DNA from: Thraustochytrium sp. TN22
Taxonomy: Eukaryota; Sar; Bigyra; Thraustochytrida; Thraustochytriidae
Assembly (NCBI GenBank): GCA_013306675.1
Contig: JABLUY010000094.1
Location: 1 to 64,000 of the forward strand
Length of the DNA: 64,000 nucleotides
Direction: 5' to 3'
The translations under genes and the position numbers were made by a program. The notes under the pieces are model-generated. The model searched no databases and was not told where the DNA came from. It was given only the letters and a program-made list of their open reading frames with translations. Shown here one piece after another: positions 20,915 to 61,343 of this stretch (the first letter of the stretch is position 1; each line of letters starts with the position of its first letter).

Positions 20915-22200
20915 TCAGGTGGGCACGCTGCTGGCGAGGCGCAGGACCTCCTGCAGGAGACCAGGCGGCGTTCCGACGGAGATGAGAAAGGTGGTGAGCA
21001 CGAGGAGGACGTGCGGTAGAAGGAAGTTGTACAGCCAGAGCGCAAGACGTCGCGTGCGCGAAAGGTTCGGGTAGAGCACGGTGGCGGACGCCTGCTTCGC
21101 GTCGAGCGGCGCCCTGCGGCGCGGCGTGATGGGCGGCGCCACGGCACCGTTCAAGATGGAGGACGGCGCCTCCTTGGACCGCGTGTACACGTCGAGTGAG
21201 AGGTTCGCGATCATGTACTCGAAGTCGGCCTGGCGCAGCTGGAGCTCGTCGCGCAGGCTCTTAATCTCTGCGTGCGCCTTGGTGAGCTGGTCGCGGCACT
21301 CGGCCAGCTCCCGCTGCAGCGCTTGGACAGCTGCACCCTCCGGCATGGGCGCGGGCGGCCCGCGAGATTGCGCAAACGGCGGCGGCTGCGACAGCATCGG
21401 CGGCGGCGGCCGCTGGTCGAGGCCCTGGCCACTCGTCACCGTAGGCGGGCCACGAGGAGGCGGGCCAGATGGTGGCGGGCCTGCAGGCGGCGGCGGACCA
21501 GATGGCGGCGGGCCAGAAGGTGGTGGACCAGCAGGCGGTGCCGTCGATGCGGATGAGACGGAGAATGAGGTGGGCGGCGAGGGCGGCTCTTGGGGCAGCG
21601 AGGGCGGCTCGTGCGACGACCCGTGCGGCAACTCCTGCATCTCCGCAGCGGGCTCGGGCGTACGGTCCGCCGTCGGCACAGGGACCGAGACCAGAAGCGT
21701 CTCGGCCTCCATGACCTTGCGTCGCAGGTCGTTCACCTCGAGAAGCGCCTTCTCCAGGTCCGCCTCGGCAAGGCACACCTGCTGCTCGCGCCACATGCGC
21801 GCCTCGCGTTCCGTGAAGAGCTCCTGCTCGAGGGACTCCACCTTGGCTTCGAGCTCGGCTTTGCGCGCCTCGAGCGCCTCGACCTGCTCGTTGGTCAAGG
21901 CGGTCACCTTGCCCTCGCCCTCGTTCTGGCCCTCGGGCGCGGCGGCCGGCGCCGAATCTGTGCTCATGGACCGGGCGCCGATCATCTTGGCCCACTCGTC
22001 CTCGGCGACAGCGCTCGCCGTGGAATCACGGCGCTCCTCCGAGACTGGCTCGGGCGAGCCCCACTCCATGGGCGCCACATAGCCGCTGCCATTCTCGAAG
22101 TGATGCGGGGACGCAGACTCGAATGGATCGTCCTGCGCGTGCTGCTGCTGCTGGTGATCGTATTGCGGCACCGGGGCATGGAAGTCGGCTTGCTGCGGGA

Positions 22201-22236
<36 letters not shown>

Positions 22237-25200
22237 GCGGCGAGGACGTGAAAGGATCGCCTCGCCCCCCCGGACCGGCGCTGGGCGGCTCCTGCGGTGG
22301 CCAACCATTGGCCGCAGGGTCATGCTGCTGCTGTTGCTGCTGTTGCTGCTGCAGGGGCCAGCTCGTGCCGCCCGAGAGCGACATGTCGGGCGGCCGTGGC
22401 GGCGGACTTGAACCAAAGGGCGACTGCGCAGAGCTTGGAGAGGTCGGTCCTTCCTGCGGCGACGGGTAGCCCGGCTGTTGCTGCTGCGGATGCGGCGGGC
22501 CCTGGTGCACAGGCGGCGTCGCGTCACGCTCAGGGCCGGCGATGATGCCAGTCGGCTCCTGGCGCAGCTCAAAGGTCGGGTGAAAGTTGCCACCGCCAAA
22601 GCCGTCGCGAGTCAGGCTGCGCGAGGACACGTTGCTAAAAGTGCGCGAGCGCGATCGGATCTCGCGTGCCGCCTTGAACGGGTCCGACATGTCGGTACTG
22701 ACGGAGCCTGCCGCGGCGCGGCCGGGGGGCAGCTCGGTCTCGTCAAAGTCCGAGTTGTCGTCCTGAATACCTGCTTCCACGAGTGTACGATGCCGGCCAA
22801 CACCAAACATCTGGCTCAAAAAGCGCGGTTCCGTCACGTCCTTGCGCTTCTTGCCGCCCTTCTTATCCTTGGACTCGTCCGACTCGCCTGCCTGGTCCGC
22901 AGATGCAGGACGCAAAGCGTCCTGATGCGGCGGCGCATCCGCCTCCGCGGGAGACGGAGGCAGCGGCGGCGGCGCGTTCACCGTCACCGGAACTGGCGCA
23001 GGCGGCGCCTGAGCCTGAGAGGAGTCTGGAGCCGGCGGCGCCATCATCGGCGGGGGCACGGGCGCCGCAGGAGACTGCGGCGTCGGCGCCTCTCCAGGCG
23101 GGCTGTAGAGACCCACCACACCGCTGCCGCCGGCGCCAGGCGATGAGATGCCCGTACCAACCTCGTTCATGGACATGCCCGTGGGCGGCTCCGACGGCTG
23201 GGACGCATCGACGCCCGTCTCCGGCTCGTCCAGGTCCAGGTCGTCCGGATCGTTGTCCCACCACTTGTTGGACCACGGCATCACCATGGGCGACTCGGGC
23301 ACCGCGGCTCCGTTTCCGTCCGACGCAGACGCGGACGCGGACGCAGATGCAGACGCCTCGTCCACGGGCGACGGGCCGCGCCCGCCCAGCACCTGCTGCG
23401 TGCGCCGCGGGAGCGCCGCCTTGCCGCGAATCGGCTGGATTCCGGCCGGCAGGTCCAAGACCGCGCGGTTGGGTGAAGCCGGCGGCGAGGCGGAGGGCGA
23501 GAATTCGTCGAGCCGCTCACCCGGGCTCAGCGGCCGGTCCTCAATAATATTGGGCTGGCCCACGAGCGAAGACTTGGCGCCAAAGATGGACCTGCGCATG
23601 GCAAGCTGCTTCTCCAGCTTCTCCACGCGCCGCAGCGCCTCGTCGCGCTCGCGCTGAGCCGCGGCGAGCTCGGCAGCGGACGCGCTCGGCTCCTCCGTAT
23701 CTTCCTTCTCCTCCTCAAGCTTGCCCTCGCACTCCTCGTCCTCGGCAGCCTCGACCGCCTCGATCACCGTGCTCGGAGCTGCCGTGAGCCGCTCGCTGAG
23801 CGCCACGCAGTCGGCTACTTCAGCCGTCAGCGCGTCTACCAGGTCCTGCTGCTCCTGCGCGGTGCCCGGCCTAGACTCGCCCGTGCTCTGCAGTTCGGCC
23901 TCCAAGGCCATGTATTCCTCACGAAGGCGCTCATGTGCCGTCTCGGCCTCAGTCGCGCGACGCAGTGCGTCCGCGAGCGCCTCGGCGTCGGCCGGGTTCG
24001 TCTCGGCCACCCAGCCGCTCGTCGTGGCCGCCATGCCGTCCGGCTCCATGCCGTCCTCCTCGCTGCCATCGTCCTCCGCCAAAGGAGAAGGCACCGCACC
24101 CTGATTCTGGCCGGCCTGCAGCTGAGCACGGTAAAGCTCGGCATTGGCCTCCTCCTGCTCACGAGCCTGAGACTTGGCATCCTCGAGCTGCTCGCCAAGC
24201 ACGCGGACCTGCTCACGCAGGACCGTGAGCTCCTCAGCCGCGGGGTCGGCCTGCGCCTGGAGCGCGGCGTCAAGCCGGCTCTGCAGGGCGGCCACCTCCT
24301 GCTGCGAATGTGCCAGGGCGCTCTGCGCGTCGTCGACTGCCTCGAGCTGCGCCCGGAGCGCCATGACCTCCTGCTGCGCCGCGGCGAGCGCGGTCCGCAC
24401 CTCGCCCTCGTCCGCGTGCATGAGGCGGAGGCGGTTCTCTGCAGTCTCCAGCTGGGCCTGCAGTGCAACCACCTCGTGGTCCTTGGCGCGGAACTGCTCC
24501 AGCAGTTGCTCCTCGCCCTGCCGGGCGGCCTGGTCGGCGACCTGCCGCTGCGTCATGGCCGCATCCACGAGTGACGAGCACTCCGCCACGACCTCGAACG
24601 CCTCGGCAATGCCGCGCTCAATGTACTGCGCAACGACGCCGCCTTCACCGTCGGCCTTCGTCTCGCCGAGGTCCTCCGCGGGATCCGCAAGGTACTCGTC
24701 AACCTGGGCGGCCAGCTGGTCATATTTCTCGTCCCAGGCGCCGGTCGCATCGCCAGCAACATCGGAAGCGGATCCGTTCGCGTCGTCGTAGCGCCGGCCC
24801 TCCTCCGCCTCCTCGGAGACCGAAGTGCTGAGCTTGAAGCGCGTCGAAGTGGTCGGCGTGAGCACACCTGGCGAGCCAAGGACCTCCTTGACCAGCGCGC
24901 CGTTCTCCGCGCCCTTCATCGGGCTCTGCGTGCGGCGTCGCAAGCTGCCACTGCGCTCAAACTCGTCATTGAGCCGCACGTCGTACATGGCGGCAGCGTC
25001 TTCCTGCGCGCGGTCGCGCTCGTGCTCGAGGCGCTTGATGACACCCAGGAGCCGCGTGACGCGGCCCGAGAGCTTCATGAGCGCGCGGTCGCGCGCCTCC
25101 ATCTCATCATGCACACGCTCCAGCTCGCGCAGCTCCTTGACGCGGGCCTCCAGCTTCTCCTTGTCCTCGTGCGCCGCGCTCAGAGCGCGCTTTGCCTCGG

Positions 25201-28200
25201 CCACCTGCGCCTCGGCCTCGCGCGCGCGCTCCGCCAGCGTCGCCTCTAATGTGCGCTTCTCATGCGCCCACAAGGTCTCGGCGTCCTCGAGCTCGCGCAC
25301 CCGCTCGCTGAGCGTGCGAGCCTTTTCCTGCGCTGCAAGCTCCTCGGACTTGGCCGCTTCCACCTGCTTCTCGAGCTCCGCGTACTGTTGCTGTGCAGCC
25401 GACGCAGCGTCCTCAGAAGCTTGCCGCTCCTTTGCCAGCGTTGCCTCCAGCGCAGCCGCCTTCTCGAGACCAGTCTTCTCCAGGGCAGCCTTTTCGAGTT
25501 CAAGCTCGTACGCCTTCCTGTTGGCCTCCTCAAGCTCGACGCGGAGCTCGCTCGCGTTCGACTCGGCCGCCGCGCGATCGGTCTGAGCAGACTCCAGGGC
25601 GTCTGTGGCCTCAGCCAGGCGCTGCTTCAAGTCGCCCAGCTCCCTTTGCAGACGGTCGCAGGCCGCCTCCAGCCCAGGTTTGAGCGCGAGCTCCGCCTCG
25701 GCCTCGGCCAGCGAGGTGCGTGCATCGTTCGCATCACTGTTGGCCTGCGTGACCTCGTCTTCGAGCTTTTCAGCGCGCGACGTCGCATCCTCGAGTGCGG
25801 CCCCAAGCTTCTGCACCTCGTCCTCCAGCGCACGGTGGTCCTTTTCGGTTGAGCGGAGCTGGTCCACCTCGCCGCGCAGGGCGTCCCGCTCGGTGCGCAA
25901 TGTGGAGCTTTCCTCAGTCAGCGAGGCAATCTGCGTCTTTAGCATCTCCAGCTCCCTCTGCATGTCCTCACGCGCCGAGCTGGCCGCGGCAGCGGCGGCT
26001 TGCCCGTCGCAACGCACCTCCTCGAGCTCGGTCTCAAGGGCTTGAAGCCTTTCGACGGCCTCCTTGCGTGCGGTGCTGACATTCTCCAATTCGCGCTCCA
26101 GCTGCGCGACCCGGGCGAGCACTTCGTCGTGGCCCTCGATCGCGGCTTCGGCCTGACTGAGCTCCTGCTCCAACTGCGCGACCCGGGTGAGCGCTTCGTC
26201 GTGGCTCTCGATCGCGGTTTTGGCCTGACTGAGCTCCTGCTCCAGCTGCGCGATTTGGGCAAGTGCCTCAGCCTCGCGGTCAGCCGCGGCCTCGGCTTCC
26301 TGGCGCGCCCTCTCCGCTTCCTTGAGCTGCGCGTCCAAATCGGCGTCGTCAGCCTGGTCCTCGAGCTCGGCAATGCGGGCGAGCGCCTTGGCCTCGCGGT
26401 CGACCGCGTCTTGGCATCTGCGCTCAGCGTCGTCGCGCGCGGCCTCGGCGTCGTCGAGACGAGCCTGCAGCTCCCGGAGGCGGGCGGCGCTGTTGCGCTC
26501 AGGGCTTGCGGCGTTCACGCCAGGGAAGCCCTCGTCCATGAGCGAGGCGCCCACAGGCGAGGACGAGGTGGCGTTGCCGCCGAATAGCGCAGCGGTGGTC
26601 GGCTCATCATCCGCCGCCGCTGCCGCTTCCTCCTCGTCCTCCTCGTGGTGGACGCCAAAGAAGTCGCTCGCAGCTGCGGATTCGTCCGTGAGCATGAAGG
26701 CGTTTTCAGGCGCGCCGCCGCCGGCGCCGCCGCCAAAGAGCGCGTCCGCCGCCGCGGGAGGTGGCATGTTGGTCCCCGATGGTGCCTGAGGTGATTGCTG
26801 CCGACGCGCCTCCAGCTCCGCGCGGAGTGCACGAACCTGGATGCGCTCCTCGTCGAGGAGACCCTTGAAGGAATCGAGCTCGTCCTTGGCGTTCTGCAGT
26901 TCGTCCCTGGCGGCTTGGAGTTCTGCCTCGGCGTGCTGCACGTCGACCTTGGTGGACTGGATCTCATCCCGCAGATAGTCGCGCTCGATTTCGGTAACCT
27001 CGAGCTGTTCGCGAAGCGAGGCAAGATTGTCCTCCGTGGCGGCCGCGCGCTGCTCGGCGTCGGCCAGCTGCATCTGCAGGACGGACTCGCCGGCGCCGTC
27101 GCCGTCGGCACCAAAGGCCGGGCTGCGCGGGGCCTCGGGCTCACTGTTGCCGAAGAGGCCGCGCGGGGCCGGCGCGGGTGATGCGGGCGTCTGCGGCGAG
27201 AGCGGCCCGCCAGAACTGACCATGGCGTCCCAGTCCAGGCTAGCGACAGGCGGGCTGACCACCTCGTGGTTGTCCCCGTGTTGCTGTTGCTGTTGCTGGA
27301 GCTGGTGGTGCTGATCCTGATCCAAGGCAGCAAAGGCAGGGGGAGCTGGCCGCGACGCGAAGTGGTCCTCCTGGTCCTTGAGGCGCGCCTCGAGGCCCGC
27401 GATGGACTGGCGGGCTTCGTGCAGCTCGTCGTCGAGCAGCGCACGCGCCTGCTTTTGGTCCTCGAGACGGGCTTCGAGCGCGCGGATCCGATCATGCAGC
27501 GAGGCCTCGGCGAGCGCGGCGCGCTCCGACTGCGCGGCCGCCTCGTCCGCAGCGGCCTGATTTTCGCGCACACGCTGTTCAGCCTGATCGGCGCGCTGCT
27601 CAGCCTGCAGGCATTCTGACCTGGCCTCGTCGAGCTTGGCGCGCAGCTCACTGAGCTTGCGCTCGTACTCCTCGTGTTGTTCGTTCTTGGAGGGCGCGCC
27701 GAGGTCGAAGTCGACGTCATCGCGCATGGCGAAGGGATCGTCGTCCGCTCCCGGGGCGGCCGCAAAGGGGTCGCTGGTCCGGGCGTGCTGCGCCTGGGCG
27801 AGCTCCTCCTCCTGGCGCCGGAGCTCCTCCTCGAGCTGCTCGCGCTGCTCGAGGGCCTGCCGCAGCTTGTCCTCGTGTGCGGCCGCGGCGGTGCGAAGTT
27901 CGGCGACCTCGGCCTGCGCGTCCGACAAGAGGACCTCGAGGCGCTCGACCTCGGCGCTACGGTCGGCGCTGGCGAGCGCGGCCTCGCGCTCGGCCTCGAG
28001 GCGCTGGATGGTCTCGACCTGGTCCGCAGAGGTGGCCTTGAGCTTCTTGAACTTGGCGTAGAGCTTCTTGAGCTGCTCGGTCTTGTTCTCCAGCTCCGCG
28101 GCGGTGCGCTCGTGGTTGGCGGCGTCCTCGGCCGGTGCGGTGCTACTGGCCGCCGCGGCGCGCAGCTGGTCGAGCTCGGCGCGCAGCTCGTTGGCCTGAG

Positions 28201-29563
28201 CCTCGTGGTCGTGGCAGAGCGAGTCGAGCTCGTTGCAGCGCTGCGTGCGCGCGGTGAGGCTGGCCTCGAGCTCCGAAACGCGCGCCTGGAGGCCGGCGGC
28301 GTCGTCTACCTGAGCACGCAGCTCGTTGAGCTGGGTCTCGGCGTCCAGCGTGGCGGCCTCCTGCGAGCGCAGCTTCGTGCGGAGCGCCTCAAGCTCCGGC
28401 TCGAGCTCGAGGAGCGCATTGGCGCGCGCGCGCTCGACCTCCTCGGCGAGCTGCGCACGCAGTTCGCTGAGCTGGACCTCGTGGCTCTGGGCGGCGGTCT
28501 CGTGCGCCTCAAGCTGGGCGCGCAGCGCCTCGAGCTCGGGCTCTAGGTCGGCGCGCGCGTCAGCGGCCGCACGTTCGGCCTCCTCGGCTAGCTCGGTGCG
28601 CAGATCGGCGAGGTGTGCCTCGAGCTCCTCGATGGTGGCGGCGGCGCGCGACTGCTCGCCGAGGAGCTCGGAGCGCAGGGCCTCGACCTCGGCGCGCATT
28701 TTGTCGGCCTCGGCGCGGGCGGCCTGCGCTCCGTCGTCGCCTTGCTCCGCCTTGAGCTGCAGCTGCGCGCGGAGGTCCTCGACGGTGTCGAGCGCCTGCT
28801 TGTGGAGGCCGCGCAGCTCGTCGGTGGCTTGGACCGCGGCGTCGCGCTCGCGCACGGCGGCGTCGAGATCCTGGCGCGACTGCATGTCGCGCTCGGCAAA
28901 GAGCGCGCGCTCTGCGTCGGCCTCGGCGAGCTCGGCCTCGAGCTCCGAGACGCGCGCCTCTGCGGCGCCGTTGTTGGCGGCCAGCATGCGCGCGGCGATG
29001 GTGTAGTGGCGCACGCCGCCTTCGTAGTTGCCCTCTGCGAAGTCTGCGTTGCCCTGTTCCCAGGCGGCGAGGATGGGGTCATCGGCGGCGGCCGAGCCGG
29101 CGCCGCGGGCGCCACCGCCCCCGTCGCCAGCCTCGTCGCCGTCGTCGTCGTAGTACTCCTCGTCGCCGCCGAGCGGACCGTCGTACGAGCCGGAGTCGTC
29201 CTCGCCGTCGTAGTCGTCGTAGGACCCCGCGTCGCCGTTGGCGTCGCGGGCTGCGGAGCGCGCCGCGGCTGCGCGCCGCGAGTCGAGCATCTCCTCCTCC
29301 TCCTCGAGCGCTTCGTCGGCGAACTGCAGCTGGCGCGGCGCGAGGTGTGGCGACTGCAGGTACAGCTTGTGCTCCATCTCAAGGTTTTTCTTCTCGGACG
29401 CGGCCAGGCGCCGTCGCAGCTCGCGCAGCTCCGTGTTGAGCGAGTACACGCGCTCCTCGGCGCGCAGCTTGACATTGGCCAGGTGCTCGGACAGCAGTTC
29501 AACGTCCTCCGGGGCCAGGCTCCCCGGCGTGCCCTGCGACCGCGGCATGGACATGGTTTCATG

Positions 29564-29597
<34 letters not shown>

Positions 29598-29797
29598 GCG
29601 TGCTGCTGCCGCCGCTGGCCGAACCCGCTGCCGCCGCTCGAGTCCCTGCGGGCGCTTGGCGGCGGCGTCACGGCCGGCGGCGGCACGCCGCTGCCGCCGC
29701 CGCCGCCGCCGTCCTCCTCCTCTTCGCCGCTGTCCTCGTGCCAGCCGAACTGCCTCTCGCTGCGGTCGCCCATCTCGCCGTCCTCGTCCGCCATCAT
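20915..29797 (-). CDS. giant tail-anchored coiled-coil (golgin/giantin-like) protein
   Basis: An uninterrupted frame of 2,960 residues. The N-terminus is acidic and Gly/Ser-rich, followed by a short coiled coil. A helical hairpin at about 240 (AAWEQGNADFAEGNYEGGVR) resembles a TPR or MIT-type unit. Roughly residues 290-1900 are almost continuous heptad coiled coil rich in Glu, Ala, Leu and Arg. A Pro/Ser/Gln-rich region (about 2150-2600) follows, with two polyglutamine runs (near 2480 and 2530). Then comes another coiled coil, a Pro-rich repeat (GPPPSGPPP) and a short last coil. A single hydrophobic helix (LALWLYNFLLPHVLLVLTTF, about 2915-2940) lies near the C-terminus. This is the layout of tail-anchored golgins that tether vesicles; the specific identity is not provable. 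ATG 29797 is the first Met, although the frame is open further upstream. Confidence 0.85.
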
Positions 29798-30835
29798 GGT
29801 CCCCGCGCCGCGCCGCGCTCCGCCCGCGCGCGCGCGCGCGCCAGCGTGGCCTCGCTCAGGCCGGGCCGCGCCGGCAGTTTGAACTGGGCTTGCTTGTCGC
29901 CGGGGCCTTGCGCGTGCCTCCTCGCTCGGGCCGGCGGGCGCCGCCGCCGGGCCCAGCGCGCGCCGCCGCGCGCTCGCCGCCGCCGCCGCCGCCGCCGCCG
30001 GCCGCGCCGCGCCGCGCGCCAGGGGCGATTGCCGCCGGCCGCGCCGCCGCCGCCGGCCGCGCTCGCGCCCTCGCGCCCGAAGCAGTACGATCCGCTGGCC
30101 GCGTCCGCGACGGCGTCCGCGACGTCCGCTTGTCGCGCTCCGGGGAAAAATACCTCGCCGCCCTTGGGCCCCTTTCCCGTTAGGCCGCCTCCCCCTTCGG
30201 CGCTCTCCCGCGCCGCACTCCCGCGAACCCCTCTTGGCCTCCGCCCCGCTGCGGGCCCCGCAGCCCCCGCCGCCTCGCGGAGAACCCTCTTCCCCCCCCT
30301 GCGTTCCTCGCAAGGAAGCCGGCTCCTTCCCACAGTCCCCGCACCGGCCCTTCCCATCCTCGCTCCCACTCGCCTCCGCACTTGCCTCCGCTCGCCGCGA
30401 CCCCCGCACCCTCGCCCGGCACCCCCGCACCCCGGCGCGGCACCCGGCTCCGCGCGTCCTTCGCGAACGGCCGCAGCGGCGCCTCTAACGATCGCCGCCG
30501 CTCCCGCCTCCCCTCCTCGCTCCCGCCGCGCGCCCGCCGCGCCGCGCCGCGCCGCGCCGCCCGCCCGCCCGCCTGCGCGCGCGCCCGCCTCGCCGCGCCG
30601 CGCCGCGCCGCGCCGCGCCGCGAGCGTTGGGCGCGGCGCGTGCGCATGACGAGGCGCAGCGCGGCGGCGAGCCCGGCCTCCTCCCTGCTTAGAGTTAGGC
30701 TCCCGAGCCGAGGAAGGTCGGCGCCTTCGCTGGCGCGCGGCGGCGCCGAGGCTGCGCGCGCGCGGCAGACCTCTAGCGGGGCGGCGGGCGGCGAGCGCGG
30801 CGCGGAGCGAGCGGCGGCGGCGGCGAGCGGGCAGG
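29798..30835. other. bidirectional upstream region, extremely GC-rich
   Basis: This is the shared 5' region of the divergent giant coiled-coil gene and the DDX3-like gene. It is over 70% G+C by eye, with GCC/GCG runs at about 29945-30060, 30535-30620 and 30780-30830. Open frames on both strands lack an ATG-led, protein-like sequence and are not called. Confidence 0.5.
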
Positions 30836-34634: not shown

Positions 34635-35462
34635 TCAGTTCGGCTGAAAGGTGCCACCAAAGACGAGCCAACCCAGGAGCGACTTGGCGACGAGCGAGAG
34701 CACGACGTAGGCCATCTCGCCGAAACGGTAGTCAGCCCAGCGGCCAACCTGCATGTACTGCAACAGCATGTTGATTGCAAAGCAGCAAAAGAAGACAAAG
34801 TACGAGACGAGGATGCCAAAGACGAAGCCAGGGACGCTGTCGGTGACGTTCTCGCCGCCGCAGAGCGAGAGCAAGACAGCAACCCAGGGCCAGGCACCAA
34901 TCCAACAGCCGACAACAAAAGGCGTCCAGTCCAGGTTGTCGTGGCGGCCCTCATTGCGCGTCTCCATGATAAGACCGAGCAGGTTCATGGTAGAGTTTGC
35001 GCCAATGATGAGCAGCAGCGTCTTGATGTCGTAGATGGCGAAGAGCTGCGCGATGGCCCAAATCATCACGGACGAGCTCATGGCGTACTCGTACCAGCGG
35101 AACTGGTTCATGCCGCGGTTCACCTGCGAGATGTACGTCTTAAACTTGGCCAGCACGACGAAGTGCGCCACGGCCGACATGAGGAAGAACACGCACACCA
35201 GAAACGCGATGCGGTAGGTCGTCAGCGTCCGCGTCTGCGTCGTGATGCGGCTCTGCGCCTCATCGTACCCCACCGCCGTCAGCGTGATGGGTAGGATGAA
35301 GTCCTTGACGCCCGGCACGGCGATGGCGCCGCCCAGCTGCACCACAAACTGGACCAGGTGCAGCACGCCAGCCACCAGGTTCCACTTGTACAGCAGCGCA
35401 TCGCTGATGCTGCTCCCGCCGCTGCTGCCGCCCACGAGGTTGCCCTCCATGTCGCCGCTCAT
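34635..35462 (-). CDS. heliorhodopsin
   Basis: This 275-residue seven-helix membrane protein matches the heliorhodopsin family of retinal photoreceptors, which sit in the membrane inverted relative to type-1 rhodopsins. Family marks are YKWNLVAGVLHLVQ in helix 1, NQFRWYEYAMSSSVMIW in helix 3 with E125 as the expected counterion, and WADYRFGEMAYVVLSLVAKS in helix 7 with K260 as the expected retinal Schiff-base lysine. SFxxNMxLQ-like spacing is preserved (CFAINMLLQYMQVGRW). Length fits the family (about 250-280). ATG 35462 is chosen because it starts just before helix 1; further upstream in-frame text is low-complexity. Function in eukaryotes is unsettled; heliorhodopsins generally do not pump ions and may signal or regulate a partner enzyme. 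Confidence 0.95.
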   Translation of the reverse strand: MSGDMEGNLVGGSSGGSSISDALLYKWNLVAGVLHLVQFVVQLGGAIAVPGVKDFILPITLTAVGYDEAQSRITTQTRTLTTYRIAFLVCVFFLMSAVAHFVVLAKFKTYISQVNRGMNQFRWYEYAMSSSVMIWAIAQLFAIYDIKTLLLIIGANSTMNLLGLIMETRNEGRHDNLDWTPFVVGCWIGAWPWVAVLLSLCGGENVTDSVPGFVFGILVSYFVFFCCFAINMLLQYMQVGRWADYRFGEMAYVVLSLVAKSLLGWLVFGGTFQPN

Positions 35463-36099
35463 CGTGCCTTGCTCGCCCCTCCCTCGCTCGCTCGCTCGCT
35501 CGGCAGCGCCTGCAGCGCCTGCGAGGTGCACTACAGCCCCGCGCGGGATGACGGTATGCGTGCAGCCCCAGAGCCCTCGCGCCCGCGCCCGGGGCGTGCG
35601 TCGAGCGAGTGCAAGGAGTAGGAGAGCTGGCTCGAGGAGTGTGCGCGCCGCGCGTGATTCAGGGAGCGACTCCTTTGCTGCGGTGCTCCGGGTGACGGCA
35701 CGTGCAGTGCTGACGGTCAGGAGCGATGAGAGCCTCACTCTGCCAAAGAGCGCGGGGAGAGGGCGGCGCCGCGAGTACGAGTGCGGTGGCGACGAAGCGC
35801 CCAAAGCGCGAAGTCGCGGAGGGCTCTGTCGCAAATGTATGCCGAGTTTGTACGGTATGGTGGTGGTGGTGGTGGTGGTGGTAGGCATGCTGAGGCTGTT
35901 GCGAACGATGATGAGGGTGGCGGGCGGCCAGGGGTACCCTACCATGCCCCCCAATGCGCTCGAGTTCGAGGTGCCTGGGACAGCCCGACTCAGAAACAAG
36001 GTGCGCTGTGCGCTGCACTGGCCAGTAGTTTTTATTCTGCACGTCGTCCAAGTCGTCATCTTGATCCAAGTTCACATTCTTCAGCCCACTGTGATGCTT
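35463..36099. other. intergenic region
   Basis: 5' region of the heliorhodopsin gene and 3' flank of the CH-domain gene. It includes a (GGT)n run at about 35862-35882 and a CTCGCTCG patch just upstream of the heliorhodopsin ATG. No gene seen. Confidence 0.5.
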
Positions 36100-53755: not shown

Positions 53756-54978
53756 GATGGTCGCGCCTTGGAGACCGTCGTTTTACCTGGCCGGGCGCCG
53801 CGTGGCCAATATGGACCGTCGCCGTACGTGGCGCCGCCGCGTGGCCAATGTCGCCTCGCGCAGCACCTCGGCCTGGGCGCGCTGCCAGCGACTGGCCGTG
53901 CGTGGTGAGGTGACCAGAGCTTGCCATGGTTGCTGTGACTCACTGTCAGCCTGCCTGCCTGTGGAGAATCCCAACGGAAACCGTGAAGCTGCGACCCGGC
54001 GGACCCGCCCACGACTTTTTACCGCCAAGTTCGAACCACCGGCTGGCACCGTGGCACGCACGGTGCCACGGCCACCGCAGTCCGCTGCAGCGTCACAGCC
54101 CCACTGCACTGCAGGCGCACGTGCCACGTGGTGACGTGGCACTGCACAGTGTCGCACAACGAGCTCGCACACCCCTGGGAGCGGCGAGCAAGCCAGGTGG
54201 TTCGGCGCCGCGCGCAGGCCCACTCTGGTAACGCAACGACTTTTCAGGCGTCCGGGCGCCGAGTGAAAACAGTTCAACTCAGCTTGTGCGTCGGGAGTGT
54301 GATCCTGTGCAGCCCGACTGCTTCGCCGCGCGGCAGCACCACTCAGAGTCATCAGGGAGAGAGAGAGGTTGGATCGAGGTGACGACACGAGCTGGGTGGC
54401 ATCATGGTGATCTCGTATGAAGACCATGAAGACCGGCCCCGCTTACTGCCTGAGCAAGACGACTGGTCCCGCTCCCTGACTGGCGCAGGCTGCCACAGCC
54501 ACCGGCGCGCGCCGCGTTTGCGCCGTTTGACTCAACGAAGTCGCCAAGTAAGCCCCGCTCGCGGGCTCGTGCCGCCGGCCCTGTGGCTCCGGCCCTGCGC
54601 CACTTGCCGCAGACTCGGCGCAGAGCGCTGCCCACGACTGGCCGGCCTCCTCGCACCTTCACATCAACTCCACTCAGGCTGTCTCCACAGCCCTCGTCGC
54701 ACTGCGCGTGCAGACGTGCGACCGCACGTGCAAAGAGGCTCCGCGGCGCTGTGGGGCGCACTCCAGGAAGCTCCGGACAAGCTGGGCTCGCCACAGGGCA
54801 ACAAGGGCGGATCGTACGCCTCGCCAAAGGCGGGCGAGAGTCCTGTGCTACGATCTCGCACGTGCAGACCTCATTGGCAGCGGGCGAGCGGGCGTGCGGG
54901 CTTGAGGCGGGGATAGCGGCCAGGCAAGCAGGGGAGGCACGGGAGGCCGGCAGACGAAGCAGGCGAGCGCGAGTGAAA
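53756..54978. other. bidirectional upstream region
   Basis: The region between the divergent acyltransferase and heme oxygenase genes. It holds a cluster of GTGCCACGTG/GTGACGTGGC-like palindromic pieces (about 54050-54150), which include G-box-like CACGTG cores. No coding region supported. Confidence 0.5.
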
Positions 54979-55734
54979 ATGGGTGAAGATGCTCCGCGGG
55001 ACCTGGCCACGCGGCTCAAGGAGGAGACGCACAAGGTGCACCGCGAGGCGGAGTCCGCGGAGTTCATGAAGGCTTTCATGAAGGGCAACCTTGGCGAGGC
55101 CGAACACACGGCGTACCTGGTGCAAATGTACCACGTGTACGCGGCCATGGAGCCCGCTTACGAGGAGTCCTGCCAGCAGAGCGGCGAGGACGCTGAGATG
55201 CTCAAGACGCTCTATTTTCCGGAGCAGCTCGACCGGCTCGAGTCGCTCCAGGAGGACCTGGCCTTCTTTCTTGGCGACAAGTGGGAGGAGAACGCTGCCG
55301 TGCGCAACCCGTCGCCCGCAGCGCAGGCCTACGCCGGCCGCCTCAAGGAGCTCGCCGCCAAGGACCCATTGCTGCTTATCGCGCACGCCTACACGCGGTA
55401 CCTCGGCGACCTCAGCGGCGGCCTGCTGCTCGGCCACATGGCGAAGAAGTCGCTCGGCCTCGAGGACGGACAGGGGCTCGCTTTTTACACCTTCGCCAAT
55501 GTGGAGGACCCCGCCGCTTTCAAGAACGAGTACCGTGCACGCATGAACGCGCTCCCGCTCTCCGAGGATCGCGCTGCCGACATGGCCCGTGAGGCTGTCG
55601 TTGCCTTCCAGCTCAACATCAAGCTCTTCAAGGAGCTCGACGACAAGTTCGGCCTCGTCGAGGGCGGTGCCGCCATCGCTAACGCCCCGGCCAACGCCGA
55701 GGCAGACAGCGGTCCTTGCTGCCTTCTCATGTGA
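54979..55734 (+). CDS. HMOX: heme oxygenase with C-terminal CaaX box
   Basis: This 251-residue enzyme should open heme to biliverdin, CO and Fe2+. The proximal heme ligand is H21 in THKVHREAESAEFMKAFMKG. The distal helix has RYLGDLSGG (140-148), and the FYTF segment and the late helix FQLNIKLFKELD fit heme oxygenase. In vertebrate enzymes a hydrophobic C-terminal helix anchors the protein to the ER. Here the tail is a short Ala/Asn-rich linker ending in CCLLM, and the last four residues, CLLM, form a CaaX prenylation box with a preceding Cys that could be palmitoylated. The tail is read directly from the DNA (TGC TGC CTT CTC ATG TGA). ATG 54979 is the first Met before the domain. Confidence 0.93.
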   Translation: MGEDAPRDLATRLKEETHKVHREAESAEFMKAFMKGNLGEAEHTAYLVQMYHVYAAMEPAYEESCQQSGEDAEMLKTLYFPEQLDRLESLQEDLAFFLGDKWEENAAVRNPSPAAQAYAGRLKELAAKDPLLLIAHAYTRYLGDLSGGLLLGHMAKKSLGLEDGQGLAFYTFANVEDPAAFKNEYRARMNALPLSEDRAADMAREAVVAFQLNIKLFKELDDKFGLVEGGAAIANAPANAEADSGPCCLLM

Positions 55735-55875: not shown

Positions 55876-57330
55876 TCACGGTGCCTTTTTAAATTCTAAA
55901 AGCGCTTCACCAATAGTCGCGGCAACGGCTGCGACAGCCTTATCGAGGGCAGCCTCATCGTCGTGTTCGAACGGCTGGATGTGGAGGTTGTCGAAGATCA
56001 TTTGCCGAAATTCCAGCTCGCCCCACTCATCGTCGGAGAGCTTCTCGAGATGCACGCAAACAATCGTTTTGCCCTTTCTCATGGCGTAGTGTAACTCGTT
56101 CCGGACATACCCGTTGGAGTTCTTCTTCTGCACCTCACTAATGTAGTGGTGAGTCGCAAACATTACAAACGCTGCGCTCTCATCAATCCCGCGTTGCATC
56201 GACGGTTCGAAGTTGGTCCTAGAGATGTTTTCATCATCAAGCCAACACTCCATCCCGAGTGCCTCGCGAAGTTTCTGGTGGAAGCGCTTAACGAGTTGGT
56301 GCGTGTCGTGCGGACCCTTCTCAGTGCTGCTCCACTTGTGAGCCAGAAAAGCAGCATATTTGGGACCGTGGCCTGCCGCCATGGGATCTTGGGCTGCAGG
56401 TGCTGTTCGTTGCACCCGGACCAGGGAGGCATCCCCTCTTTGCGCCTCATCTTGCGGAGTATTGGGCAGTTCCTCCTCGCCTCGCGCATCAGGTTCCGCA
56501 GACTCCGCGCGCGCGCCCAACGTGTGACGAGAAGGGTCTCCACCTTCGCTGTCGTCCTCGCCGGGATCCTCCTCCTCCTCCTCCTCGTCGTCGTCGTCGT
56601 CATCATCGGCGTCATCGTTGTTGTTGTCATCGTTGTCGTTCTTGCCAAGATTGTCACTCCCGTTGTGGTCATGGTCGTCGTGGTCGTCATCCTGGCCACT
56701 AACGGCGTCCACTGGCGCCCGTTGCGCCTCCGCATGAGACGCACGCGGGGCGCCCTCTGCAGACGCTCCGGCTCGCCACAACCACACTGTGAAACCAATG
56801 ACAAGCATGGTGATCGCAGACGGCCAGAGCCGCCAGACGAAGTCCTGTACCTTGATCTCGCAAGCCGGGTAGAAGTGGTTCGAGTCGCTGCAAGGAACAT
56901 CGTCCCATCGGCCCTGGAACAGAGGCGATACGGCCGCACAGGAAGCCTCGTTTCTCGCGCTCTTGTTGGGCTCGCTCTCCTCCCAGTATTTAAAGCCGTC
57001 CGTCGTGCTCCCGTCCTCCCACCTCCACACATTTGAATTATTGCATGCATCGCGGTGGTCGCACGGCTGGAGTCCGATCCAGCACCCATGATGATGACAT
57101 TCATAGTCGACCTTTAAGGACCGCTGCACCACGGGAGAATCCACCTTGACGAGGACCCCGCCCCTCCACGAGCAGTACGAGTTGGCCTCGTACCAATCAA
57201 CTTTTCTCGAGCCCACGAACCTGTGCTTATCCCCGAGCCACTCCATCATGGGGCGCACGGCGCTCAATGCCCCGCACGAGTTCATGAACGAGTGAAGGAG
57301 GGGAATGGTGAAGACGCTCTCGCCCGCCAT
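55876..57330 (-). CDS. C-type lectin / transmembrane / TIR receptor-like protein (copy 1)
   Basis: A 484-residue predicted single-pass receptor. Residues about 45-158 form a C-type lectin domain with WIGLQ, the Ca/sugar motif EPN (120-122, mannose-type) and WDDVPC with the paired cysteines. A helix (about 166-185, SAITMLVIGFTVWLW) spans the membrane. An acidic linker (about 207-268, Asp/Glu runs) follows, and then a TIR domain (about 324-455): KYAAFLAHKWSS, ECWLDDENISRTNF, AAFVMFATHHYIS and VRNELHYAM. E412 in NEL fits the catalytic Glu of NAD-cleaving TIRs. ATG 57330 gives a leader (ESVFTIPLLHSFM) that is a poor signal peptide, so the true 5' end may lie in another exon. Copy 2 lies directly upstream. 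It converges with the heme oxygenase gene. Confidence 0.88.
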   Translation of the reverse strand: MAGESVFTIPLLHSFMNSCGALSAVRPMMEWLGDKHRFVGSRKVDWYEANSYCSWRGGVLVKVDSPVVQRSLKVDYECHHHGCWIGLQPCDHRDACNNSNVWRWEDGSTTDGFKYWEESEPNKSARNEASCAAVSPLFQGRWDDVPCSDSNHFYPACEIKVQDFVWRLWPSAITMLVIGFTVWLWRAGASAEGAPRASHAEAQRAPVDAVSGQDDDHDDHDHNGSDNLGKNDNDDNNNDDADDDDDDDEEEEEEDPGEDDSEGGDPSRHTLGARAESAEPDARGEEELPNTPQDEAQRGDASLVRVQRTAPAAQDPMAAGHGPKYAAFLAHKWSSTEKGPHDTHQLVKRFHQKLREALGMECWLDDENISRTNFEPSMQRGIDESAAFVMFATHHYISEVQKKNSNGYVRNELHYAMRKGKTIVCVHLEKLSDDEWGELEFRQMIFDNLHIQPFEHDDEAALDKAVAAVAATIGEALLEFKKAP

Positions 57331-57840
57331 CTCCGTGATGATCACTGCTGCTCCACGGGTGTTGCGTCAGCTCGTGCAGCGCCGCAGCGCCGCAACGCCT
57401 AGCCTCGCCTCGGCTCGCCCCGCGGGCGGGCGAGCGAGCGAGCGAGGCGCGCCTCCGCTCGTCGCGCGTCCCTTGCCCAGGCTGTTGCAACGTCGCAGCC
57501 TGGCATTCGCGACCTGTTTGACAGCGACTGCAGTGCCTTGCCTTTGCAAGCAAGCAGCAAGCTGCAAGGTACTCTAACTTAGTACCGGGTCCCAGCTAGG
57601 TACCTTGGGACCAGGTACCAGGGTACCGATCCCAATGATCGCGCCGCTACGAGCTTGCACATGGCATCTTGACTCGGATGGCCTTGCAGAAAACCATGGT
57701 CACAGTGGTGTACTCTAGCTAGACGACCTTAGTGGCTAGCGCCTCGTAGTCTTTGTCTCGGTAGTCGGCATCTCGTGTGTTGTTGGCTCTTCCTGAGGCG
57801 CACTTGATCAAGCGCGCGCTTCATGCACGTGACGAATTCG
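57331..57840. other. spacer between the two lectin-TIR genes
   Basis: Matches the upstream flank of copy 2 (59140-59530): GCGCAGCGCCGCAACGCC-like text, CTCGCCCCGCGGGCGGGCGA, GGTACC-rich patches and AACATGGTCACAGTG. GGTACC recurs several times (57599-57630), as it does at 59370-59410. Its left end repeats the 3' flank of copy 1 (TGTTGTTGGCTCTTCCTGA). Confidence 0.65.
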
Positions 57841-59067
57841 TCATGCTTCGGCGGTATCTTGCAATTCAAGGATACTCGCGGCGAGGCGAGTGACAGCGGC
57901 ATCGAGAGCAGCCTCATCGTCGTGTATGAATAGCTCGACGTGGAGGTTGTCGAAGACCTCATGCCGAAAGCTCAGCGCGCCCCAGTCCTCGTCGGAGAGC
58001 GTCTCGAGACGCACGCAAAGGATCCTTTTGCGCGTTCTCAAGGCGTAGTGGAACTCGTTCCGGACAAACCCGTTGAACTGGTTGTTCACCGCATCAACGT
58101 ACCTGCGAGTCACAAACATCACAAACACTGCGCTCGCATCAACCCCGCGTTGCATCGCCGCTTCGAAGCCGGTCCTAGAGATGTTTGCCTCATCAAACCA
58201 ACACTCCATCCCATGTACCTCGTGAAGTTTCTGTCGGAAGCGTCCAACGAGTTCATGCGTGTCGTTCAGCGGACCATAGCCACTGCTCCACCTGTGAGAC
58301 AGAAACGCAGCATACCTGGGGTCGCGGCCTGCCGCCATGGGATCTTGCGCTGCAGGTGCTAGTCGTTGCACCCGGACTCGAGGGGCATCTCCTCTTCGCG
58401 CCTCATCTTGCGGAGTGTTGGGCAATTCCTCCTCGCCTCGCGCATCAGGCTCCGCAGACTCAGCCCTCGCCCTCACCGCGCGACGAAAATGGTCCTCTGG
58501 CGCCCGTTGCGCCTCCACATGAGACGCACGCAGGGTGCCCTCTGGAGACGCTCCGACTCGCCACAACCACACTGTGAAAACAATGACAAGCATGGTGATC
58601 GCAGACGGCCAGACGAAGTCCTGTACCTTGATCTCGCAAGCCGGGTAGAAGTGGTTCGGGTCGCTGCAAGGAACATCGTCCCATCGGCCCTGGAACAGAG
58701 GCGATACGGCCGCGCAGGAAGCCTCGTTTCTCGCGCTCTTGTTCGGCTCGCCCGGCCCCCAGAGTTTAAAGGCGTCCGTCGTGCTCCCGTCCTCCCACCT
58801 CCACACATTTGGATTATTGCATGCATCGCGGTGGTCGCACGGCTGGAGTCCGATCCAGCACCCATGATGATGACAAGCGTGGTCGACCTTTAAAGACCGC
58901 TGTACCTCGGAAGAGTCCACCTTGACAAGGGCCCCGCCCCTCCTCGAGCAGTACGAGTTGGCCTCGTACCAATCGACTTTTCTCGAGCCCACGAACTTCA
59001 GCTTTTGTCCGAGCCACTCCAACATGGCGCGCACAGCGCTCGTCGTCCCGCACGAGTTGATGAACGA
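57841..59067 (-). CDS. C-type lectin / transmembrane / TIR receptor-like protein (copy 2, 5' end uncertain)
   Basis: Paralogue of copy 1, 408 codons from the first shared residue (SFINSCG). The lectin domain keeps WIGLQPCDHRDACNNPNVWRW, EPNKSARNEASC and RWDDVPC; the membrane helix is ITMLVIVFTVWLW; the TIR domain has YAAFLSHRWSSG, ECWFDEANISRTGF and NGFVRNEFHYAL. The linker lacks the acidic tract of copy 1. No ATG exists in frame until 59025, which would cut into the conserved leader. The bases just before SFINSCG read CCCCTGCCTCCAG, a good polypyrimidine-AG 3' splice site, so an upstream exon with a signal peptide is likely (inference). The start given here is that exon boundary. Confidence 0.82.
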   Translation of the reverse strand, partial: SFINSCGTTSAVRAMLEWLGQKLKFVGSRKVDWYEANSYCSRRGGALVKVDSSEVQRSLKVDHACHHHGCWIGLQPCDHRDACNNPNVWRWEDGSTTDAFKLWGPGEPNKSARNEASCAAVSPLFQGRWDDVPCSDPNHFYPACEIKVQDFVWPSAITMLVIVFTVWLWRVGASPEGTLRASHVEAQRAPEDHFRRAVRARAESAEPDARGEEELPNTPQDEARRGDAPRVRVQRLAPAAQDPMAAGRDPRYAAFLSHRWSSGYGPLNDTHELVGRFRQKLHEVHGMECWFDEANISRTGFEAAMQRGVDASAVFVMFVTRRYVDAVNNQFNGFVRNEFHYALRTRKRILCVRLETLSDEDWGALSFRHEVFDNLHVELFIHDDEAALDAAVTRLAASILELQDTAEA

Positions 59068-59546
59068 CTGGAGGCAGGGGCAGGCAGGCAGGGCAGGGAG
59101 CAGACGCGCGCTCGTCCACGCCGTCTCCGCACGCCTCTTGATGCTGGCAGCTCGGCTTCTTGCTTGCGCAGCGCCGCAGCGCCGCAACGCCGCGACGCCT
59201 GGCCTCGCCTGGCCTAGCCTCGCCCCGCGGGCGGGCGAGCGAGCGAGGTGCGCCTCCGCTCGTCGCGCTCCGCTTGCCCAGGTTGCCGACGTCGCATTGC
59301 TCTGCCACCGTCTGACGGTGACCGTGAGTGCAAGCCTGATTCATGATCAGTCAGAGCAAGCTCGCGCGTGGTACCCTGGTACCCTGGTACCTGGAGGTAC
59401 TACCATGGTACCAGCCAGTACCATGATAGCCTGATTCCAAGGATCGCGCCGCCTCGAGCTTGCACATTGCATGCCATCACTCGCAGAAAAAACATGGTCA
59501 CAGTGTTGTAGTCTAGATCTTCGCAGTCATTTCTTGGATCAAGAGA
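59068..59546. other. upstream flank of lectin-TIR copy 2
   Basis: Would hold the missing first exon and promoter of copy 2. GGTACC-type repeats occur at 59369-59410 (GGTACCCTGGTACCCTGGTA). No ATG-led signal-peptide exon could be picked out by eye. Confidence 0.5.
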
Positions 59547-61343
59547 TCATTTTGCGGGCGGCGGGACGGCGGCGCGGTGAACGACGTCAATGACCTCGGC
59601 CCACTCCGCGGGTTGGGTGCTCGTTAGGTGGAGCGTGTGCGGCGGCCGACGCAAGAGCCACGCGATGGCGCTCATGACGTCGATGGGAAGTACGCCGAGG
59701 TTGGCGAGGTGGTCCCAGTGCTTTTCCGGTAAGAGCGCTCGCACGGCGCCGTAGGTGAGGCCGTCAAAGTCGGCAAAGGGAAAGGCGCCGTTGATATTGA
59801 CTGGAACGCACTTCTTGCGCTCGCGCTGCGCCAAGACGAGCTGCGCGAGGCAGTGCTTGGACCGCAGGTAGGCCGGCGTGAGCAGCGGGCAGAGCACCTT
59901 GGCCAGGCGCACAGTGGCCAGGCCTTCGTCGAGGTCCTGCAGGGCATCCTCGTCCTGGAAGGAGAGCGCAAAGTCACGGCCCAAGCCATCGTTGAGCCCC
60001 TGCACAAACCAGGCGGCGAGGTCGCCGTCGTCCTGGTAAGAGACGAAGATGGTGTGGCGCACGCCGCGCGCACGGCAGGCGGCGAAACAGGCGGCGCGAG
60101 AGAGGCCGGAGCTCGCGGCGAGGTCACGGTCGCGCTCGGCCTCGACGCTGGTCTGCGGAACCGCGCGCGAGGCGCCGCCCGGGCCAAGCCCACAGCCGCA
60201 GAACGAAGCGACAAACTCGCGCGCGCGATCGCCGAGCGAGTCTGCCGATTCAAAGTGAAAGACGCCAACCTCAGCCTCGTTGTAAGGACGAATGCGGCGC
60301 AAGATGCCAAAGGCGAAGCGCAGCTTGGCAACGGCCTTGCTGCCCTTGAAGAGCACGGCATTGCCGTGCGGCAGGCCCTCCTCGAACTCCGCGAAAAGCA
60401 GCGGCCGCGCGGCCTCCGACGCGATGACGAGGCCCTGCCCGTGCAGCTTGCCGTCCATAAAGGTGCCCAGGTAGACCAGCGTCTCTACCTTGCTCTGCAG
60501 GCGCGGCAGGACTGCCATGTCGAACCAGAGCGATTCCGCGAAGACGCCCGACGGGACGTCCCAGAGCTCCGGCCGCAGGTACTCGGGTGAGAAGAACCGG
60601 CTCAGCCCGTGCTCGCGGACGATCTGCGCGAAGAGTTCGCGCTGACGGTTCGGGTCTGCGGCGCGCGGCAAAAAGTACTCGGTGGCGAAGCGGCCGATGC
60701 GACGCCCGGCAACCAGGCCGGCGCCCGCGGCCGACACCCCGGGCGCCAGTGCCGGCGCAAGCCTCGCCGTGGCCGCCGCACGCACCGCGCTGGCCCTTCC
60801 ACGAATTGCCGCTGCGGCGGGGCTACCTGCGCTCGATGGAGCCTCCGTCTTGGCGCTCGGCGTGACGAGGTCAGCGGCGGTGGCCGCGACCGCCGCGCCG
60901 ACCGGGTCCTCATCCCCGGAGTACGGCGCGGCGAGCGGCACGGTGCCAGAGCTCAAAATGTGCAGCGTCGCGGCGCTGGCGCCCAGGTCGTCGCCCGAGA
61001 CGGCCGCGGCCAGCCCCTCGGGCAGCACGCTGGCCAGCAGGCTGCTCAGCACGGCGCGCAGCGGCACGGCGAGCGGGACGGCGGCCGCCGGCGCGAGCGC
61101 CGCTGCGGCCCACAAGCCGCCAAAGAAGCCTGCGGCGACCATGGCCGCGCCGCCCAGCACGCTGCTCTGCACCAGCCTGGCGTCGCGGCCCTCGCGCTCC
61201 GCCTTGCGCAGCGGCAGCGGGTCGTCGTCCGCATCGCCCGCGCGCCACCCCGGCCTGAACGCGAACCGCAGCAGCGTCGCCTGCTCGTCGCTGTCCAGGA
61301 ACTGCGCGTGCGTCACGCGCCCCAGCGTCTCGCGGTGCGCCAT
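59547..61343 (-). CDS. membrane-associated MORN-like / TIR protein
   Basis: A 598-residue protein. The N-terminal part contains long hydrophobic Ala/Val/Leu segments (about 60-108, GGAAMVAAGFFGGLWAAAAL and AVPLAVPLRAVLSSLLA) that may span the membrane. A region at about 290-335 resembles two MORN repeats (LVYLGTFMDGKLHGQGLV and FAEFEEGLPHGNAVLF), which bind lipids or membranes. A TIR domain spans about 430-575: TIFVSYQDDGDLAAWFV, ALSFQDEDALQDLDEGL, LCPLLTPAYLRSKHCLAQLV and KKCVPVNING. At the position of the TIR catalytic Glu (CLxEL) it has Gln (CLAQL, Q501), so NADase activity is doubtful. Start ATG 61343. It lies upstream of, and in the same orientation as, the two lectin-TIR genes, making a three-TIR cluster. 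Confidence 0.82.
   Translation of the reverse strand: MAHRETLGRVTHAQFLDSDEQATLLRFAFRPGWRAGDADDDPLPLRKAEREGRDARLVQSSVLGGAAMVAAGFFGGLWAAAALAPAAAVPLAVPLRAVLSSLLASVLPEGLAAAVSGDDLGASAATLHILSSGTVPLAAPYSGDEDPVGAAVAATAADLVTPSAKTEAPSSAGSPAAAAIRGRASAVRAAATARLAPALAPGVSAAGAGLVAGRRIGRFATEYFLPRAADPNRQRELFAQIVREHGLSRFFSPEYLRPELWDVPSGVFAESLWFDMAVLPRLQSKVETLVYLGTFMDGKLHGQGLVIASEAARPLLFAEFEEGLPHGNAVLFKGSKAVAKLRFAFGILRRIRPYNEAEVGVFHFESADSLGDRAREFVASFCGCGLGPGGASRAVPQTSVEAERDRDLAASSGLSRAACFAACRARGVRHTIFVSYQDDGDLAAWFVQGLNDGLGRDFALSFQDEDALQDLDEGLATVRLAKVLCPLLTPAYLRSKHCLAQLVLAQRERKKCVPVNINGAFPFADFDGLTYGAVRALLPEKHWDHLANLGVLPIDVMSAIAWLLRRPPHTLHLTSTQPAEWAEVIDVVHRAAVPPPAK

Follow-up and report, generated by a model that had tools for sequence, protein, structure and literature searches.

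Two tandem genes in the 64,000-nucleotide window of Thraustochytrium sp. TN22 analyzed here (C447:1-64000 of an assembly of 37.9 Mb in 453 contigs) each encode a C-type lectin domain, a hydrophobic helix and a TIR domain within a single reading frame. The two open reading frames (ORFs), A (55876-57345) and B (57841-59187), lie on the minus strand. Pfam scans revealed Lectin_C in ORF A with an E-value of 9.3e-9 (36.4 bits) and in ORF B with 1.6e-11 (45.3 bits; cut-off 22.6), and TIR_2 with 2.7e-11 (44.5 bits) and 2.1e-11 (44.8 bits; cut-off 28), respectively. The first-pass annotation of this DNA had described two paralogues, each with a lectin domain carrying EPN and WDD, one membrane helix and a TIR domain per chain, and had proposed a Pfam search for both domains. 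Pfam, alignment and hydropathy bear this description out, both domains scoring above cut-off in A and B. No leucine-rich repeat (LRR) was matched in A or B by the Pfam scan at E up to 10, Lectin_C being the presumed ectodomain part.

The frame is free of stop codons across the lectin and TIR parts in both copies, giving open frames of 496 and 499 amino acids. Alignment of A against B yields a protein identity of 72%, with nucleotide identities of 92% for the lectin, 78% for the TIR and 68% for the N-terminal segment. Four of the five coding indels between them are divisible by three (18, 9, 171 and 3 nt), and the fifth, of 14 nt, lies near the C-terminus. The corresponding count upstream is four of nine, both counts being small and taken with the first 60 upstream and the last 20 coding columns excluded. 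Because two diverged copies share the same domain order and their coding indels are mostly multiples of three, the joined frame appears to have been maintained during the divergence of A and B.

Comparison of the two lectin domains revealed that the EPN motif, the Glu at +8, the WDD motif, the four canonical cysteines and the WIGL motif are identical in A and B. We take these residues to be calcium ligands and canonical lectin motifs, with WDD presumably replacing the usual WND. In addition, all seven aligned lectins from the genome have a further cysteine pair directly ahead of W-x-G, and the retention of the cysteines throughout these seven suggests that they form disulfides. Langerin entries were the top solved matches of the lectin (E 3e-5), and in this respect it resembles the langerin and DC-SIGN lectins. 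In contrast to A and B, langerin and DC-SIGN are animal type II membrane proteins without a TIR domain.

An alignment of 25 TIR domains, from which 7 of 30 prepared references were left out by choice, showed the Glu of the RNE[FL] motif to be invariant in all 25, together with one Asp and one Tyr. The same Glu is at least 90% conserved in an alignment of 37 longer TIR ORFs. At E-values of up to 0.05, a profile of 25 TIRs from the genome matched 37 solved sequences, in the order Cat1, two SEFIR entries, bacterial TIRs, tir-1, AbTIR, SARM1 and plant TIRs. Three of these, tir-1, SARM1 and AbTIR, are named NAD(+) hydrolases. In the alignments printed for tir-1 and Cat1 the conserved Glu is paired with a Glu, and we assume that the Glu of tir-1 is its catalytic residue. 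A and B thus resemble tir-1/SARM1 and the bacterial TIRs Cat1 and AbTIR in their profile matches and, for tir-1 and Cat1, in the aligned Glu; they differ in that those proteins carry no lectin or membrane receptor part. By name, none of the 37 solved matches is a Toll-like or interleukin-1 receptor, 4c7m being named merely TIR domain-containing protein. Since the TIR profile matches NAD(+) hydrolases and both copies keep the aligned Glu, an enzymatic output of the TIR is favored over Toll-style scaffolding, with the proviso that the Glu on its own is no proof of activity. The catalytic Glu of SARM1 is E642 in the accessible passages of the literature. According to those of a review, the TIRs of TLR4 and MyD88 have no NADase activity (PMC7282519). 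The accessible passages of a preprint surveying eukaryotic TIRs report TIR_2 matches in almost all subclades and describe several all-eukaryote clades as uncharacterized (PMC13142454).

A single hydrophobic stretch lies between the two domains, with a 19-residue mean Kyte-Doolittle value of 1.47 in A and 1.91 in B, the helix calls resting on this simple hydropathy scale rather than on a dedicated membrane predictor. The net charge before and after the helix is 0/+1 in A and -1/+1 in B. For the lectin genes on C34 and C233, which are related to B (see below), it is -2/+2 and -2/+1, so that the C-terminal side is the more positive in all four lectins checked. This charge bias weakly favors an orientation with the lectin outside and the TIR inside. 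A reverse signal anchor can give such a lectin-out orientation without a cleaved signal, and it is plausible that A and B act as surface pattern-recognition receptors.

The genome scan yielded 18 Lectin_C matches and, up to an E-value of 0.001, 123 TIR_2 matches, of which 114 were above the cut-off; the 123 are not a gene count, as some ORFs hold two matches and some are tandem copies. Among all these matches, only A and B combine a lectin and a TIR in one ORF. When the two lists were compared, lectin and TIR matches within 20 kb of each other were found on C447 only, the next closest pair lying about 23 kb apart on C11. Scanning of 37 TIR ORFs for partner domains (E up to 0.01) revealed COR-A in 15, ankyrin in 4, Roc in 3, and NPHP3_N, LRR_6 and Lectin_C in 2 each. 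This sample comprises three ORFs of the window and 34 from other loci, including the near-identical neighbors L025 and L026; it is biased to strong TIR matches, and many of its ORFs are cut by locus ends. The TIR repertoire is very large for a protist. At C160:1247-4627, four TIR matches with an exact spacing of 1043 bases and one internal TGA each form an apparent tandem array of broken copies.

A search of the genome with protein B gave as the best TIRs outside the pair those of two C407 genes, with E-values of 6e-36 and 6e-27 and identities of 48% and 45%. The next TIR follows at 2.8e-16, and the other identities are at most 43%. Inspected by eye, both C407 genes carry LRRs ahead of the TIR, and their repeat part is interrupted by GT-AG introns. 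A tree built from 23 of the 25 aligned TIRs, two truncated rows having been dropped, placed the TIRs of A, B and the two C407 LRR-TIR genes in one group with a support of 100/99. Elsewhere in the genome, protein B has lectin matches only in the C34 gene (36% identity) and the two-lectin C233 gene (33% and 32%), which combine lectin and a C-terminal hydrophobic helix and contain no TIR in the ORF. Conserved blocks also lie upstream of A and B, where 418 aligned positions show 63% identity. In the simplest history, a TIR from an LRR-TIR gene would have been added to a lectin-helix gene, and tandem duplication of the product together with its upstream region would have followed, the direction of these events being what we infer from the comparison. 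Because the lectin is closest to the genome's own lectin-helix genes and the TIR to its own LRR-TIR genes, the fusion looks home-made. Prokaryotic and viral contigs scanned with the A/B alignment gave 57 and 20 pattern matches, none of which was confirmed; the patterns lay in the lectin half, and TIR-alone relatives were not sought. A scan against NCBIfam yielded three weak matches, all far under the cut-off, and PADLOC gave none for three proteins.

Based on these comparisons, we propose that A and B, as tandem paralogues, encode a membrane protein with a sugar-binding lectin outside the cell or in a lumen, clustering on ligand, and a NAD+-cleaving TIR in the cytosol, a reading to which we give about an even chance. 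The chain would have been built from a small lectin-plus-helix gene and a TIR taken from one of the genome's own LRR-TIR genes. Its C-type lectin would face the cell exterior or a vesicle lumen and bind sugars in a calcium-dependent manner. Binding of a multivalent glycan surface, which might belong to a bacterium, prey, a mate or another cell, would cluster the chains, and the TIRs on the cytosolic side would then assemble and cleave NAD+. The output might be a local loss of NAD+ or a signal carried by a nucleotide, either ADP-ribose or a cyclic form. A bolder version, held more tentatively and at somewhat less than even chance, would have A and B as surface single-chain C-type lectin receptors with an enzymatic TIR, assembled locally from a lectin-helix and an intracellular LRR-TIR gene, in which a sugar outside directly switches NAD+ cleavage inside. 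If so, they would represent an independent, adaptor-free counterpart of Toll-like receptors in a unicellular eukaryote, and a small system linking glycan binding to NAD+ cleavage.

Several observations weigh against this proposal. The solved matches of the lectin include members that are not known to bind sugars, such as an antifreeze protein and NKG2-D. SEFIR domains, which are not named hydrolases, rank second and third among the solved matches of the TIR profile, and a single-sequence search of the PDB with the TIR of B alone retrieved nothing up to an E-value of 1. The bias in charge is slight, the C-terminal flank being only +1 in A and B. The best N-terminal 9-residue hydropathy is weak, at 1.42 in A and 1.41 in B read from ACG, compared with 2.53-3.18 in four hand-picked controls in which a signal peptide is evident, namely three lectin genes and the gene at 51136 of the window. 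By this hydropathy measure no convincing signal peptide was found in A or B. Nor was an upstream spliced exon with consensus-like donors that would supply one found among the ATG-GT-AG combinations in 57255-57840 and 59030-59546 (intron at least 45 nt, acceptor at most 120 nt from the conserved segment). The top exon candidates, with hydropathies of 2.2 (A) and 2.61 (B), were rejected, as they use non-consensus splice sites and are not common to A and B; their values also fall short of the highest among 30 shuffles (2.54 and 2.66). In addition, B has no in-frame ATG ahead of the lectin, the first lying at the lectin edge (59025), and reads ACG (59124) where A has ATG (57330). The dN/dS of the TIR is 1.2 (bootstrap 95% 0.78-2.06) and that of the lectin about 0.5 (0.23-1.37); both ranges include 1, and therefore selection is not established for either domain. 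The TIR divergence lies mostly on A, since its branch in the TIR tree is 0.67 against 0.029 for B. The long branch, together with the dN/dS of 1.2, makes relaxed constraint on the TIR of A possible.

Part of this evidence fits a receptor of the same build whose TIR is not an enzyme but serves, as in Toll-like receptors, as a scaffold for recruiting further TIR proteins. Such partners would be plentiful given the 114 TIR_2 matches above cut-off, and both the fast divergence of the A TIR and the SEFIR domains among the best solved matches suit this alternative. However, it is at odds with a Glu invariant in all 25 aligned TIRs and with the lack of any Toll-like or interleukin-1 receptor name among the 37 solved matches, and we consider it unlikely. 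Slightly less likely still is that the lectin is cytosolic, or the protein away from the surface, acting as an internal sensor of, for instance, glycans exposed on damaged vesicles. The ORFs of C34 and C233, in which N-terminal hydropathy likewise revealed no signal peptide, have their helix at the C-terminus as in tail-anchored proteins, and this suits an internal sensor, as does the same lack in A and B. However, the cysteine pattern suggestive of disulfides in all seven lectins and the charge bias speak for a lectin outside, and with one helix a cytosolic lectin would place the TIR away from cytosolic NAD+ and partners.

It also seems improbable that one or both copies are decaying or are not expressed as drawn, B perhaps having lost its start and A the constraint on its TIR. 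The ACG of B at the position of the A ATG and a TIR dN/dS near or above 1 would be expected of decay, but the domains are free of stops in both copies, four of the five coding indels are multiples of three, and the lectin dN/dS is about 0.5, though with a range that includes 1. Finally, a gene-model artefact with lectin and TIR on separate transcripts, suggested by the apparently intron-split LRR-TIR relatives, is very improbable, and two separate genes are set aside because both diverged copies keep one continuous frame through helix and linker.

In animals, sugar sensing and TIR signaling are usually on separate proteins. A Toll-like comparison had been drawn in the first-pass annotation, which also knew of no described example of the architecture. 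The comparison holds for a single chain of ligand domain, helix and TIR; it is nevertheless not the best match, because the TIR profile matches bacterial, SARM1/tir-1, SEFIR and plant chains. Toll-like receptors, including the choanoflagellate LRR-transmembrane-TIR proteins, share with A and B a ligand domain, one helix and a TIR per chain, as described in the accessible passages of PMC6040629. In contrast, A and B carry a C-type lectin in place of LRRs, have no clear signal peptide, and none of the solved chains matched by the TIR profile is named as such a receptor. The same source describes immunoglobulin-transmembrane-TIR proteins in sponges and cnidarians and LRR-transmembrane-TIR proteins in choanoflagellates (PMC6040629).

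The claim of no described example has to be narrowed, because a plant TIR-lectin protein and cyanobacterial variable proteins, some with TIR-like domains beside a C-type-lectin fold, are in print. Arabidopsis PP2-A5 likewise holds a lectin and a TIR in one protein, but with another lectin fold and an N-terminal TIR, and no membrane helix is mentioned in the accessible passages (PMC12355970). Variable proteins of cyanobacteria have a C-type-lectin fold with TIR-like domains among the rarer partners; they differ in being bacterial, mostly predicted to be cytosolic, and diversified by a retroelement, as far as the available text describes them (PMC7517822). Dictyostelium TirC is, like A and B, a protist TIR protein with a predicted membrane helix, and NADase activity is reported for it; however, its helix is N-terminal and the accessible passages mention no lectin (PMC13142454). 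Ctenophore proteins combining TIR_2 with fibronectin repeats are described in part of the literature seen, and the domains that a cnidarian survey, in its accessible part, names as frequently paired with C-type lectins do not include TIR. A C-type lectin-membrane-TIR protein was not found among the matches listed by word matching in open-licence literature, figures not covered, and this speaks weakly for its absence. A single chain with lectin and TIR is already known, and what may be new is the combination of C-type lectin, membrane helix and TIR. If these parts are joined in a protist, this would show that shuffling can give rise to receptor-type TIR proteins beyond the animals.

The features of the two genes and of an adjoining TIR gene are collected in Table 1.

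Table 1. Features of the lectin-TIR gene pair and its TIR neighbor (window positions).
Feature	Position	Strand	Remarks
Gene A, lectin-TM (transmembrane helix)-linker-TIR	55876..57330	(-)	484 aa from in-frame ATG 57330, stop 55876-55878; uninterrupted frame
Lectin_C of A	56872..57204	(-)	EPN, WDD, canonical cysteines; Pfam, alignment
Predicted membrane helix of A, WPSAITMLVIGFTVWLW	56776..56826	(-)	Hydropathy; net charge 0 before, +1 after
Acidic Asp/Glu-rich low-complexity linker, A only	56530..56700	(-)	57-codon insertion compared with B (171-nt indel)
TIR domain of A	55966..56301	(-)	VRNEL with aligned Glu; Pfam, alignment
Gene B open frame, lectin-TM-TIR	57841..59187	(-)	ACG 59124 aligns to A ATG; first in-frame ATG 59025
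Lectin_C of B	58648..58980	(-)	Pfam, alignment
Predicted membrane helix of B, WPSAITMLVIVFTVWLW	58561..58611	(-)	Hydropathy; net charge -1 before, +1 after
TIR domain of B	57973..58305	(-)	VRNEF with aligned Glu; Pfam, alignment
Third TIR gene, no lectin match	59547..61343	(-)	Adjoins the fusion pair; neighbor, not part of the fusion

The third TIR gene scored 24.4 bits for TIR_2 in the window scan (cut-off 28) and 28.0 bits, above the cut-off, in the genome scan. Its N-terminal part is hydrophobic and MORN is matched weakly; the gene reads CLAQL where C-x-x-E is found elsewhere, so that by eye Gln seems to stand for the conserved Glu. On the other side of the pair, a heme oxygenase ORF (54583-55734, plus strand; Pfam E 4e-59) ends in CCLLM, which we take to resemble a prenylation CaaX box. 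GGTACC palindromes cluster at 57599-57622 and 59370-59407, upstream of both fused genes, where 7 of the 14 copies in the window lie; with about 22 expected from base composition, the palindrome is locally concentrated without being overrepresented in the window as a whole.

A PfaA-type polyunsaturated fatty acid synthase frame of 3044 aa has a divergent 2083-aa frame about 2.6 kb off. The former presumably fits a labyrinthulomycete or thraustochytrid host; PfaA-type synthases are found in marine bacteria too. Domain scans, genome searches and this frame together support the earlier assignment of a single-chain lectin-helix-TIR protein to a eukaryote, in keeping with a thraustochytrid. Elsewhere in the window, a 3171-aa open frame at 20915-30430 (minus strand) has a weak rootletin match below the cut-off, and a heliorhodopsin gene lies at 34635-36059 (minus strand; Pfam E 1.3e-76).

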